IMG/VR virus record: IMGVR_UViG_3300007735_000590
Span: 1-30,182 of that record
Source: a virus
DNA length: 30,182 nt
Strand: one strand, 5' to 3'
Shown here: positions 1-4,347 of the stretch, piece by piece
How positions within the stretch are numbered: the stretch's first letter is position 1
How the letters are laid out: every line of letters starts with the position of its first letter
Position numbers and translations under genes: made by a program
Notes under the pieces: model-generated
Seen by the model: the letters and a program-made list of their open reading frames with translations, nothing else
Databases searched by the model: none
Told to the model about the DNA's origin: nothing

Positions 1-25
1 CCCCGAAAGACTGGTTGCGCTGAAG

Positions 26-1255
26 GTGGACGCGCCAATTGATGCAACACCGCAACAACAGCAGGCACAGCCAGAAGACATTGCCAAGGAATTTGCGCCA
101 GACGCGACACCGCCAACAGAAGCAAAGCCCGCCAAAGAAGCCAAACCCGTCAAGACAGTCAACATCGAGTCGTGGGATGACATACAGGATGAGCCAGTCG
201 AGTGGCTGATCCATGGCGTGTTGCCGGTCAAGGCTTTCGCCGCCTTGTATGGCCCGCCAGGCTCATTCAAGTCGTTCATTGCCCTTGACATGGCCGAGGC
301 CATCGCCACAGGCAGGCCGTGGATGGGCAACCCGATAGAGAGACAAGGAGCCGTGCTGTACCTGTGCGGTGAGGGCTTTGGCGGTATGGGTGCAAGGATC
401 AAAGCGTGCCAGATCCACCACAAGACGCCAAAGGGTGCGCCGATATATGTGATCAGACACCAGCTCAACCTCAGATCAAGCGCCGAGGACTTCAACGCGC
501 TGATGGTGGCAATCGTGGCGCTGGTGGAGAAGACCGGCATGGAATTCCAGCTGATGGCGGTGGACACGTTGGCTAGGGCGTTTGGCGGTGGCAACGAGAA
601 CGATTCAGACGCAATGGGTGCATTCATCACCACCATGGGAAAGATTCAAGAGTTCCTCAACTGCGCACTCATGGTGCTGCACCACAGTGGCAAGGACACC
701 ACCAAAGGATTGCGCGGTCACTCTTCCCTGCTTGGCGCGGTGGACACCCAGCTGGAGATCCTCAGATTTGAGGAACAAGCCAAGGGCGTGATCTCTCTCA
801 CCAAACAAAAGGACGGCGAGGACGGCATCAGATTCGGCTTTGAGATGGTCGAGATTGAGATCAGCGGCTCCAGTCTTGGCTTTGATCCGGTGGTCAGTCT
901 GGCGGTCCAAGCCAGCGATGAGGCCGTCAATCAGGCGTCAAAAAGAGCCACAAAGGGCAACGCGGGGAACGCCGGAAACGGCAAAAACCAGCGTCTGGAG
1001 ATGCTCTGTCTGGAGACTGTGGTCAAGGCCAAAGGAAGCATAAAGTATATAGACGGCAAACAGAGGATGGCCGTCAATTTGGAGGAATGGAGGCTGGAAT
1101 TGTGGTCAAAGATGGGGTGCTCGGAAGAGGATCGGAACAAATTCAACACGGCTTGGAGCAGGGCGAAGGCTCGATTACAAGAGGTTGGGCTGGTCGGCAT
1201 CAGGGATAAATTGGCTTGGTTGGAGTCAAAAGATGCGTCCAATGACGAGTATTGA
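26..1255 (+). CDS. RepA/RecA-type (AAA_25-like) replicative helicase or ATPase
   Basis: A P-loop ATPase of the RepA/RadA-like group, which in phages and plasmids acts as a replicative helicase or recombination ATPase on DNA in the cytoplasm. Counting from the GTG at 26, a Pro/Ala-rich leader (1-45) precedes the Walker A loop GPPGSFKS (76-83), a CGEG strand (114-117), Walker B LMAVD (176-180), a sensor-like LHHSGKDT (218-225) and GLRGHSSL (228-235), all typical of RepA-type hexameric ATPases. The C-terminus (about 335-400) looks like a small winged helix. The reading frame stays open from 26 back to base 2 with no stop, so the true start may lie outside the window and the gene may be 5'-partial. 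It sits just upstream of an iteron-like repeat cluster, which fits a replication role. The family is fairly sure, the exact activity less so. Confidence 0.8.
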   Translation: MDAPIDATPQQQQAQPEDIAKEFAPDATPPTEAKPAKEAKPVKTVNIESWDDIQDEPVEWLIHGVLPVKAFAALYGPPGSFKSFIALDMAEAIATGRPWMGNPIERQGAVLYLCGEGFGGMGARIKACQIHHKTPKGAPIYVIRHQLNLRSSAEDFNALMVAIVALVEKTGMEFQLMAVDTLARAFGGGNENDSDAMGAFITTMGKIQEFLNCALMVLHHSGKDTTKGLRGHSSLLGAVDTQLEILRFEEQAKGVISLTKQKDGEDGIRFGFEMVEIEISGSSLGFDPVVSLAVQASDEAVNQASKRATKGNAGNAGNGKNQRLEMLCLETVVKAKGSIKYIDGKQRMAVNLEEWRLELWSKMGCSEEDRNKFNTAWSRAKARLQEVGLVGIRDKLAWLESKDASNDEY

Positions 1256-1273
1256 TACTGTACAAATAAACAG

Positions 1274-1366
1274 CTTACAACTTACAAACGCATACATTTG
1301 CAAGAGTTTGTAAGTTCACTCTTACAAATTACAAACCGAGAGTCTAAAGACTCGGAGGTTTGTAAG
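1274..1366. repeat. Iteron-like cluster of TTACAA(A) repeats with two inverted pairs
   Basis: Six copies of a TTACAA core lie within 93 bp: CTTACAAC (1274-1281), CTTACAAAC (1281-1289), its reverse complement GTTTGTAAG (1306-1314), CTTACAAAT (1321-1329), TTACAAACC (1329-1337) and GTTTGTAAG (1358-1366). Two perfect 9-bp inverted pairs form: 1281-1289 with 1306-1314, and 1329-1337 with 1357-1365. The second pair encloses an inner stem GAGTC/GACTC (1340-1344 and 1349-1353) around a TAAA loop. The site lies between a RepA-like ATPase and the next gene. It could be an iteron-type replication origin or a multi-site operator; the sequence alone does not decide. Confidence 0.6.
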
Positions 1367-1399: not shown

Positions 1400-2083
1400 A
1401 TGGCAACGAAACAGAAAACGAGAAAACCCAATCAGCTGCCTTTGGTGGAGATACCTCGCCAGCAAGCAGATCCTTGGACGATTCATGTGCAATCGAAGTT
1501 GGTGGAACTGGAGGCGGTGAAGGCGGCAAGTGACAGGAAATGGGGAGAAAACCGACTGATTACTTTAGTAGACAGTGATGTCAGAGAGAAATTCTGGATT
1601 CAAAACAGCAGAGTTCATCAGTTCATCGCGGCAAAGGATCAGATCAAATTCGATTCGGCGGTGGCGTCCATGATCAGGGCGTTTGGCGTGTTGGACAACA
1701 AGGCAACCGAAGCAGGGTTCCAGCCAGCTGCGCCAGAGATTCCACGCATCGAGTGGGAGATGGGTAACGGCCAGATCATGGTGGTCACCAGAACGCAGGC
1801 CGAGGCTTTGGCGATCCAGACGTCTCGCAAAGATCTGCGGGACGAGCACATCTGGAGCATGGAGGAGCTGGAGGTCTTCATGGTCGAGCCAATCGTCCAA
1901 GAGGTCATCAAGATCAAGGCCATGATCCCAACAGCACAGGTCACCAAGTTCAGCTCAACCAAGCTGGGTGGTGAGACAGGATTTGATGACTTTGAAAATG
2001 ATCTGACATTCAGCGACAATGAGCCAACAGAGTTCAAGTTCAACACCAAGACAGCAGAGAGGTTCAAGAATGGGACAAATTAA
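1400..2083 (+). CDS. Hypothetical phage protein in replication module
   Basis: No family recognised. The product is about 227 residues from ATG 1400, soluble, mixed alpha/beta in character, with a basic N-terminal tail (ATKQKTRKPNQ) that could touch nucleic acid and no membrane segment. The frame is open further upstream to a TTG at 1298, but that would run it through the TTACAA repeat cluster. ATG 1400 has a good ribosome-binding site (AAAGGA at 1385-1390) and is preferred; ATG 1382 is a weaker alternative. It lies downstream of the RepA-like ATPase and the repeats and upstream of terS, so a replication accessory or repeat-binding role is possible but only inferred. Its end overlaps a possible 29-codon ORF. 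Confidence 0.7.
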   Translation: MATKQKTRKPNQLPLVEIPRQQADPWTIHVQSKLVELEAVKAASDRKWGENRLITLVDSDVREKFWIQNSRVHQFIAAKDQIKFDSAVASMIRAFGVLDNKATEAGFQPAAPEIPRIEWEMGNGQIMVVTRTQAEALAIQTSRKDLRDEHIWSMEELEVFMVEPIVQEVIKIKAMIPTAQVTKFSSTKLGGETGFDDFENDLTFSDNEPTEFKFNTKTAERFKNGTN

Positions 2084-2159: not shown

Positions 2160-2161
2160 TC

Positions 2162-2593
2162 GTGCCAGGCAACCCAAAGCGTAGGCAGGATGTTGCAATG
2201 CTCAACGAAATGCCCGAAGAGATGATCTTCAGCATGATTGAGGCAGGCAAATCTATTGCCGACATTTGCATTGATCTGGGCATCTCAAAGCGCGCGCTTG
2301 ATGAATGGATTGATGAAAACGATCACGGTGCTATGATTACACGCGCGCGCACGCGTGCGGCTGACTTGATGGCCTGTGAGACGATCAAGATCGCAGACGG
2401 CATGGACGTAGACCACGCGCAGCGCGATGTCCAGCGCATCCGCACTCGGCAATGGCTGGCCGAAAGGTGGGATCAGAAGACTTATGGCCTACAAAAGCAG
2501 GCGCAGGTGACGATCAACATGCAAGACCTGCGCATTGACGCGCTGCGACATGTCGAGGTCATCAGCGACTTATCCACAGGGGAAAAGGCATGA
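2162..2593 (+). CDS. terS: Terminase small subunit
   Basis: DNA-recognition subunit of the packaging motor, 143 residues, within the usual size range. A helix-turn-helix lies at about 30-53 (KSIADICIDLGISKRALDEW), followed by a helical oligomerisation segment whose end, with RTRQWLAERWDQKTYG (about 94-109), matches the QRD...RW...KYG pattern common in phage small terminases. The start is GTG 2162, supported by a GAGGAGG ribosome-binding site (2147-2153); no better in-frame ATG is near. It is followed after 281 bp by terL, as expected. A perfect DnaA box, TTATCCACA (2570-2578), lies inside its 3' end. The assignment rests on HTH, length and position. Confidence 0.8.
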   Translation: MPGNPKRRQDVAMLNEMPEEMIFSMIEAGKSIADICIDLGISKRALDEWIDENDHGAMITRARTRAADLMACETIKIADGMDVDHAQRDVQRIRTRQWLAERWDQKTYGLQKQAQVTINMQDLRIDALRHVEVISDLSTGEKA

Positions 2594-2772
2594 TTGGCGT
2601 CTTGGCCTGTGGACAACTGGCGTTTGCCGTGGTTGCGCATGTATAACCTGTTAGCAACATGCTGCTTGGTTAACATAATGGACATCGTGTAAAGCCGACA
2701 AATGCACGCATATCCACAAAGGCCAATAGAATCAACGACTTACGCCATTTGTGCGTCTGGAAGTTGTCCACA
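2570..2772. other. Cluster of DnaA-box-like sites (candidate origin)
   Basis: Four 9-mers match the DnaA box or near variants: TTATCCACA (2570-2578, perfect), TTGTCCACA on the minus strand (2608-2616), ATATCCACA (2710-2718, one mismatch) and TTGTCCACA (2764-2772). They straddle the terS end and the 280-bp gene-free interval before terL. Clusters like this bind host DnaA in bacterial and plasmid origins. No obvious AT-rich unwinding element with 13-mers is visible, so the function is inferred. Confidence 0.5.
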
Positions 2773-2874
2773 TACGCCGAAGGTACTCACCGCTGGCCGC
2801 GGTCGGCTCGACCCCCCCCATCGCTCGGCGCGGCGGGGGCGGCTGATGGTGCACCCTAACAGCTACCGAAACCC
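2594..2874. other. terS-terL intergenic region, GC-rich distal half
   Basis: A 281-bp stretch without a convincing gene. The first part is of mixed composition and carries DnaA-box-like sites and a promoter candidate. The last 80 bp is strikingly GC-rich, with CCGCGG, a run of eight C (2812-2819), GCGCGGCGGGGG (2828-2839) and then the C-tracts at the terL start. Packaging sites (cos or pac) often lie beside or within the terminase genes, so this is a reasonable place for one, but no cohesive-end signature can be proven by eye. Confidence 0.4.
2651..2679 (+). promoter_or_regulatory. Possible sigma-70-type promoter before terL
   Basis: TTAGCA (2651-2656, 4 of 6 to the -35 consensus) and CATAAT (2674-2679, 5 of 6 to the -10) are separated by exactly 17 bp, in the gene-free interval between terS and terL. 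It would transcribe terL and the structural genes. The -35 is weak and such matches occur by chance. Confidence 0.3.
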
Positions 2875-4347
2875 ATGACCCACCCCCCTACCCCCACCCC
2901 CACAGCGCCCGCCGCCCGCTCCAAAAAAAAATTGGACACTGCGCCCGATAACCCGTTTGTCGAATTCGTCAAGCTATACCGCAACAACCCTGTGCTCTTT
3001 GTGCGAGAGGTGTTGAACACTGAGCCTGATGGCTGGCAGATAGAGTTCCTTAATCACATTGCGGCAGGCAACCGCCGCATCAGTGTCCGGTCCGGCCATG
3101 GCGTTGGCAAGTCAACGGCCAGCGCCTGGGCGATGCTGTGGTATCTATTCCTGCGCTTCCCTGTGAAGATTGTGGTGACGGCCCCAACCAGCAGCCAGCT
3201 GTATGACGCCTTGTTCGCGGAGGTTAAGCGCTGGGTGAAGGTCTTGCCCCCTGTCTTGTTTGACCAGCTGGAGGTCAAGCAGGACCGCATTGAGATGAAG
3301 GACGCCAACAACGAGGCGTTTATCTCGGCCAGAACATCCCGCGCCGAGCAGCCCGAGGCCTTGCAGGGCGTGCACAGTGACAACGTGATGCTGGTGGCTG
3401 ATGAGGCGTCTGGTATACCGGAGCAGGTCTTTGAGGCCGCCGCTGGCTCGATGTCTGGGCACGCCGCCGTGACCCTGTTGCTGGGCAACCCTGTGAGGTC
3501 TAGTGGGTTTTTCTTTGACACGCACAACAGGCTGGCGGGTGACTGGATCACGATGAAGGTGTCATGCGCCGACTCGCCCAGAGTGTCTGAGGCCTACATT
3601 GAGGAGATGAAGGCGCGTTACGGCGAGGAGAGTAATGCGTACAGGATTCGCGTACTTGGCGAGTTCCCGAGAAGTGATGACGACACCGTCATCCCCATGG
3701 AGTTGCTGGAATTGGCGATGAATCGGGATGTTGAGGCGAGTAAACATGCGACTTTGGTGTGGGGATTGGACGTTGCGCGGTTTGGCTCGGACCGCTCGGC
3801 TTTGTGCAAGAGGCAGGGAAATGCGGTGCTGGAGCCGATTAAAACGTGGAAAAACCTTGATTTAATGCAATTGACGGGTGCAGTTGTAGCCGAGTTTGAG
3901 ATCCTTGTGCCGAGCCAGCGCCCCCAAGAAATCCTTGTTGACTCGATTGGCTTGGGCGCTGGCGTGGTGGATCGGTTGAAAGAGTTGGGGTTACCGGCTC
4001 GTGGCATCAACGTGGCCGAGTCACCGGCCATGGGCGGGACTTACAGGAACTTGAAGGCAGAACTCTGGCACAAGGCCAAGGCGTGGCTTGAGTCGCGGGA
4101 CTGCCGGATGCCCAAGGATGAGGCGCTGATTGCTGAGTTGGCGACTGTGAGGTACTCGTTCACGTCCAATGGGAAGATCCAGATTGAGGGCAAGGATGAA
4201 CTCAAGAAGCGTGGCATGGCCTCGCCAGATAGGGCTGATGCGTTTTGTTTGACGTTTGCTTCTGACGCGGTGATTGGGATGTATGGCTCGGCTGCGTCTA
4301 CCAAGTGGAACAAGCCCTTGCGCAGGAACTTGCCGCGGGTTGCATAA
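2875..4347 (+). CDS. terL: Terminase large subunit (packaging ATPase and nuclease)
   Basis: Motor and headful or cos nuclease that drives DNA into the procapsid at the portal. It has 490 residues, the usual size. ATPase: Walker A SGHGVGKS (73-80), Walker B VMLVADE with catalytic Glu177 (171-177), coupling motif LLLGNP (201-206). RNase H-like nuclease: acidic residues D299 (GLDVARFG), D356 (LVDSIGLGAG) and D452/D455 (SPDRADAF). A Pro/Thr-rich leader (3-14) is encoded by C-tracts, and KKK (17-19) by nine A in a row. The ATG at 2875 has no visible Shine-Dalgarno; TTG 2932 is the only nearby alternative and also lacks one. A stop at 2857 blocks further upstream extension. Assignment is secure; the exact start is not. 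Confidence 0.95.
   Translation: MTHPPTPTPTAPAARSKKKLDTAPDNPFVEFVKLYRNNPVLFVREVLNTEPDGWQIEFLNHIAAGNRRISVRSGHGVGKSTASAWAMLWYLFLRFPVKIVVTAPTSSQLYDALFAEVKRWVKVLPPVLFDQLEVKQDRIEMKDANNEAFISARTSRAEQPEALQGVHSDNVMLVADEASGIPEQVFEAAAGSMSGHAAVTLLLGNPVRSSGFFFDTHNRLAGDWITMKVSCADSPRVSEAYIEEMKARYGEESNAYRIRVLGEFPRSDDDTVIPMELLELAMNRDVEASKHATLVWGLDVARFGSDRSALCKRQGNAVLEPIKTWKNLDLMQLTGAVVAEFEILVPSQRPQEILVDSIGLGAGVVDRLKELGLPARGINVAESPAMGGTYRNLKAELWHKAKAWLESRDCRMPKDEALIAELATVRYSFTSNGKIQIEGKDELKKRGMASPDRADAFCLTFASDAVIGMYGSAASTKWNKPLRRNLPRVA
2879..2901 (-). other. Potential G-quadruplex (minus strand) at the terL start
   Basis: On the plus strand four C-tracts of 3, 6, 5 and 5 bases are separated by A, TA and A. The minus strand therefore carries G5-T-G5-TA-G6-T-G3, a textbook quadruplex motif with very short loops, and the plus strand or mRNA side an i-motif-like tract. 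It falls in codons 2-9 of terL, where it gives a Pro/Thr repeat. Confidence 0.6.

Follow-up and report, generated by a model that had tools for sequence, protein, structure and literature searches.

The AT-rich gap that follows the rep gene of this viral contig is very probably a phage replication origin, bound by the winged helix of the Rep protein through iterons of the word TTACAAAC. Comparison with relatives at the sequence level further indicates that the Rep C-terminus and the repeats are swapped as one block between otherwise near-identical phages. Hereafter, the window refers to the whole 30,182-nt stretch that was analyzed, an IMG/VR phage record. The repeats lie within about 145 AT-rich bases between the rep stop codon (1255) and gene 1400, with the following features:

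2 to 1255, plus strand: 3′ part of the rep gene, 417 aa; the 5′ part lies off the contig.
1251 to 1400, no strand: AT-rich stretch with the repeats, GC 0.32-0.37 compared to about 0.55 around it.
1275 to 1280, plus strand: iteron copy 1, core TTACAA, diverged.
1281 to 1289, plus strand: iteron copy 2, CTTACAAAC.
1306 to 1314, minus strand: iteron copy 3, CTTACAAAC, inverted.
1321 to 1328, plus strand: iteron copy 4, CTTACAAA.
1329 to 1337, plus strand: iteron copy 5, TTACAAACC, left arm of the main hairpin.
1357 to 1366, minus strand: iteron copy 6, CTTACAAACC, inverted, right arm of the main hairpin.
1279 to 1316, no strand: hairpin A, made by inverted iterons.
1316 to 1373, no strand: hairpin B, with outer arm, iteron arm and the core stem GAGTC-TAAA-GACTC (1340-1353).
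1400 to 2083, plus strand: gene 1400, a conserved protein with no function found; a neighbor with no tie to the repeat word.

Exact copies of TTACAAAC number four (1282 and 1329 on the plus strand, 1306 and 1358 on the minus strand) compared to 0.47 expected, a count that none of 100 shuffles reached. Two further copies are inexact, with one mismatch to the 8-mer at 1322 and two at 1275. An earlier, sequence-only reading had described six copies within 93 bp, which holds for the TTACAA hexamer (six copies in the intergenic stretch) and not for exact copies. Its judgment that the cluster has more order than chance would give was confirmed by the exact-copy shuffles and by the largest 8-mer family in 1256-1399, which has 8 members compared to a shuffled mean of 3.3 (1/300 shuffles as high). 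The search for the motif elsewhere that it had proposed found exact TTACAAAC confined to the cluster, with no other copy in the 30-kb window. Short, regularly spaced repeats of one word within an AT-rich stretch are the features of an iteron-type origin.

The two 9-bp inverted pairs noted earlier are real, and both extend further than was stated. CTTACAAAC/GTTTGTAAG is part of an 18-nt pair that is 83% complementary (1279-1316), and TTACAAACC/GGTTTGTAA (1329-1337/1357-1365) is part of the 58-nt hairpin B, the core of which is framed by one iteron and an inverted copy of the same. Compared to shuffled sequences, the single-strand fold has a z of −6.1 as RNA and −5.9 as DNA of the other strand.

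To place the array among relatives, we scanned viral contigs with gene 1400 (80 loci) and with Rep (50 loci, partly overlapping). Removal of duplicates left 74 rows, mostly metagenome contigs, 65 of which (the window included) have a recognized hairpin core, and in all 65 the array sits between rep and gene 1400. Measured from the hairpin center, the repeats stand at about −73, −65, −55, −24 and −18 (direct) and +20 (inverted copy) in about 65 distinct relatives, independent of the word. The word itself, classed by the right arm of the hairpin, differs between phages and switches in every copy together (TTACAAAC, GTAACAAAC, GGAGACAAA, GCGACAAA, ATCAGAA or ATCGGAA); the repeat words found across relatives are CTTACAAAC, GTTACAAA/T, GGTAACAAAC, GGAGACAAAC, GCGACAAAC, ATCAGAA, ATCGGAA and CGTTAC. 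The sequence-only reading had held that a lack of conservation in related phages would count against it; the architecture is conserved and the word is not. In five phage genomes, copies of the phage's own word are concentrated at this locus. More distant loci (L114, L118, L119, L121-L125) carry other words and another palindrome core at the equal position. No host was found: scanning genomes with gene 1400 returned no relatives. Some long origins, such as those of L055 and L035, have a second iteron set in both orientations farther upstream, some 160-180 bp ahead of the hairpin core.

The hairpin varies in sequence while it continues to pair. In L014, L029 and L031 the core stem is instead ACTGTC-TATAA-GACAGT, which argues that pairing is kept without sequence conservation, and the outer arms differ among relatives with pairing intact (TCACTC/GAGTGA, TGCATGG/CCATGCA, CACAGG/CCTGTG). 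A stem-loop 3′ of rep that is kept despite sequence change is also the hallmark of the pRN1 type of origin. We considered whether the hairpins function at the RNA level, say as an attenuator, terminator or antisense target, as the very stable fold and the persistence of the stems through sequence change would suggest. However, no terminator-like site was found in the repeat stretch, an Rfam search of the region gave no match, the direct copies that lie outside the hairpins switch word along with the stems while their spacing stays constant, and the repeats follow a DNA-binding helix in Rep (described below). Because these unpaired copies change too and track the Rep helix, RNA pairing alone is insufficient; we rejected it as the main reading and regard an RNA element as very unlikely. 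As a separate observation, the TTTA/TAAA loop (1340-1353 in the window) recurs in L137-L139 and L141-L144, in which Rep is ≤40% identical and the stems and iterons differ.

The origin reading draws on this conserved geometry together with the co-variation between the word and the Rep C-terminus. Rep in the window matches Pfam AAA_25 (E = 1.7e-38). Full-length Rep in relatives is about 690 aa and comprises a Zn-ribbon/Toprim-like primase part, an AAA_25 helicase and a C-terminal winged helix; the Zn-ribbon and Toprim Pfam matches are sub-threshold in 10/19 and 9/19 relatives, with invariant motifs. The parts of the C-terminal domain relevant here are:

980 to 1231, plus strand: Rep C-terminal winged-helix domain, the proposed iteron reader, from predicted structure and co-variation.
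1124 to 1186, plus strand: recognition helix, from the AlphaFold2 helix limits and column ranking.
1148 to 1150, plus strand: Thr codon in the recognition helix, the residue most tied to the repeat word by column ranking.

The AlphaFold2 model of this domain has block pLDDT values mostly of 87-93, and a structure search with it returned winged-helix matches at Z of about 8; the 50 matches listed did not include the P4 origin-binding domain, which leaves room for kinship.

Distances between iteron words correlate with distances between Rep C-termini (Mantel r = 0.80; 0.78 given the ATPase). The corresponding values are 0.29 for the ATPase, 0.18 for the Rep N-terminus, 0.26 for gene 1400 and 0.04 for TerS (p = 0.2). 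By nearest neighbor, the 18-residue recognition helix predicted the word class in 51/52 phages, and did so equally when pairs of C-termini ≤10% different were excluded, compared to scores of 0.22-0.37 for the ATPase, Rep N-terminus, gene 1400, TerS and TerL, where chance is 0.34. In the top column of the helix, Thr occurs with TTAC (26/27), Met or Val with TAAC (8/8) and Lys with GAC (12/12), the one exception being L063, with Lys and TTAC. By co-variation, the DNA-binding domain of the initiator thus matches the adjoining repeat type, as in iteron-type origins. Together with the conserved geometry, this lends support to the earlier suggestion of an origin-type iteron cluster next to the RepA-like ATPase gene.

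The same reading had proposed the product of gene 1400 as the binder, and the gene does adjoin the array and is conserved together with it. Its prediction of the word is at chance, however (0.29-0.37 compared to 0.34), its partial Mantel correlation given the Rep C-terminus is −0.07, and phages whose gene 1400 proteins are 92-94% identical carry different words. Binding of the repeats by this protein is therefore highly improbable. Since the word tracks the Rep C-terminus, and other Rep parts, gene 1400 and the terminases are at chance, it is likely the Rep winged helix that binds the repeats. The gene 1400 product may touch the conserved hairpin core. For this product, Pfam yielded no relative, PDB none that was convincing, and PHROGs sub-threshold matches only; its structure model is weak (pTM 0.41), and its viral structure matches are mostly unnamed, the one with a name being a terminase small subunit at 16% identity.

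The location of the array upstream of the terminase genes would also suit a cos or pac packaging site, bound by the small terminase subunit that is encoded 0.8 kb downstream. The type of such a site should follow the small terminase, and the Mantel correlation (0.04) and word prediction for TerS given above are at odds with this. We rejected the packaging site, to which we attach next to no probability.

Two observations concern the terminase genes themselves. The N-terminal half of TerS (window 2161-2400) is a second mosaic, with two types among near-identical phages that are unrelated to the word (10 changes on the tree of ATPase and gene 1400 compared to 15.7 shuffled); this half could represent a cassette for the packaging site. 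The intergenic stretch that separates the two terminase genes (window 2593-2875) has C-rich runs and high GC.

The block that is exchanged was delimited by nucleotide identity between the window and its relative L006:

900 to 1385, plus strand: exchange cassette of Rep C-terminus and origin, about 450 bp, from a sliding identity window against L006.

Identity between the two is 78-100% (mostly 83-100%) upstream of about −300 relative to the rep stop, drops to mostly 32-60% between −296 and +129 (7% in one 60-column slice) and is again 78-100% over gene 1400. The pairs L045/L041, L051/L046 and window/L009 show the equal block pattern. On a tree of the ATPase and gene 1400, the word needs 21 changes compared to 22.8 when shuffled (43/200 shuffles as low). 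With a Rep C-terminus tree, 5 changes suffice compared to 22.5 (0/200 as low); this second tree has few columns and its single forks are unsure, and the contrast between the trees is independent of any one fork. With the proposed reader domain encoded immediately next to the repeats, a single exchange of about 450 bp would swap both key and lock.

Downstream of rep, we also inspected reference phages whose Rep is distant (≤40% identity). In Rhizobium phages 16-3 and RHph_X2_25, CGTGACA occurs in 14-16 copies together with a hairpin of CTCC-TTTA-GGAG or CCCC-TTTA-GGGG, and BcepGomr has AAAATAA repeats and CCCC-TTTA-GGGG 3′ of rep. Four Roseobacter phages share ACCC-TTTA-GGGT, with the word CTACAAA in CRP-811 and CRP-823 and GTATAAA in CRP-821 and CRP-831. 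CRP-823 and CRP-821 were isolated on one host strain and carry different words; their rep genes are mostly 88-98% identical, identity falls to 47-83% from −352 to +187 and then returns to 83-98%, and their recognition helices differ too. As far as genome comparison can tell, cultured phages with other primase parts (Prim-Pol in 16-3) show both the layout and the swap as well. The related-Rep phages GB2A, ctyzp037, Chah, NTR1, Mahdia and a Vibrio phage have no such repeats downstream. The layout is thus not universal for AAA_25 Rep proteins, as actinophage and Caulobacter relatives are without a downstream array. A DNA search of the region against reference phages gave no match.

The co-variation would also fit an operator, through which the Rep winged helix would regulate the following late or packaging genes (gene 1400, terminase) with no start of replication, and the array does lie directly upstream of these genes. 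Yet the repeat stretch has no promoter-like hexamers, a ring-helicase/primase would be an odd repressor, and the downstream genes differ in cultured phages with an equal array. Origins 3′ of rep are also documented, for pRN1, in which a stem-loop 3′ of rep is essential for replication, with a similar one proposed in phage BIP-1 (PMC4234260), and for PICIs/SaPIs, in which the origin is directly 3′ of rep (PMC6092414). We therefore consider an operator in place of an origin unlikely. As a replication origin, the region could still offer sites that the Rep winged helix uses to regulate the downstream gene.

The helicase of P4 alpha belongs to SF3, whereas Rep here is AAA_25/RecA-like and contains no SF3 helicase. 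P4 alpha joins a Toprim primase, a helicase and an origin-repeat-binding winged helix in one protein; Rep resembles it in its predicted C-terminal winged helix and has sub-threshold Toprim matches, and the accessible part of the source describes no iteron-framed hairpin for P4 such as the one here (PMC4234260). The pRN1 plasmid likewise has a stem-loop 3′ of a primase-helicase-winged-helix gene, with sequence free and structure kept; unlike the phages here, it lacks iterons and combines an archaeal-type primase with an SF3 helicase, and specific binding was not found (PMC4234260). Archaeal-type Prim-Pol with SF3 was not found in Rep, with Prim-Pol seen only in phage 16-3.

In the PLE satellite replicon of Vibrio cholerae, according to the accessible part of the source, the DNA-binding domain of the initiator varies in step with the iterons, the two moving as one module, and origin swaps showed that only cognate pairs replicate (PMC8263062). 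The PLE initiator is unrelated, with RepA_N at its N-terminus, which has no Pfam match in Rep, and comes in five variants; that part of the source describes no PLE counterpart of the palindrome (PMC8263062). Co-variation of initiator and iterons is thus already known from PLE satellites, and what is new here is the stem-loop, the saturated swapping and the readable relation of helix to base. PICIs/SaPIs share the origin 3′ of rep and iteron sets that flank an AT-rich stretch (PMC6092414). They are satellite islands, unlike the phages here, and are likened by origin position and iterons, not by initiator. The lambdoid O/ori types offer a parallel in that lambda with P22 replication genes in place of its own escapes inhibition by lambda ori plasmids (PMC3349717). 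Lambda O is not known to contain a helicase or primase part, and the lambda iterons lie inside the O gene whereas those here are 3′ of rep.

From the architecture we infer how the origin might operate. Rep, with its primase, ring-helicase and winged-helix parts, would bind the iterons just 3′ of its own gene, and the ordered array would then load or nucleate the helicase ring. The AT-rich DNA would open, the palindrome between the inverted iterons would fold into a hairpin or cruciform, and the Rep primase part would start synthesis at or near the hairpin. GC skew, a check suggested in the sequence-only reading, rises steadily along the genome with no turning point at the region, which fits gene-strand bias and lends no support to an origin.

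Precedents make it plausible, by analogy, that origin type is switched under attack or competition: a phage nuclease needs the PLE iterons to cut (PMC8263062, accessible part), ectopic ori copies arrest lambda (PMC4488673), and replacement of the lambda replication genes with P22 versions allows escape from inhibition by a lambda ori plasmid (PMC3349717). We tentatively raise the possibility, which we hold with less than even confidence, that origin type is under strong diversifying selection, with the cassette exchanged so frequently that it is statistically unlinked from the remaining genome. If true, such unlinking is what would be expected where rare origin types escape origin-targeting rivals, satellites or defenses. 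Origin specificity passes between phages on a small cassette, which prompts one to ask why a common origin type should be costly. The CRP pair, with two origin types on one host strain and a near-identical rep otherwise, makes this testable at the bench. The relatives form a large natural data set in which helix and DNA word change jointly with spacing, hairpin and flanking genes constant, enabling a direct test of how initiators shift specificity without losing their origin. If our reading is true, the recognition helix would let residues be matched to bases over the many word changes seen in nature.
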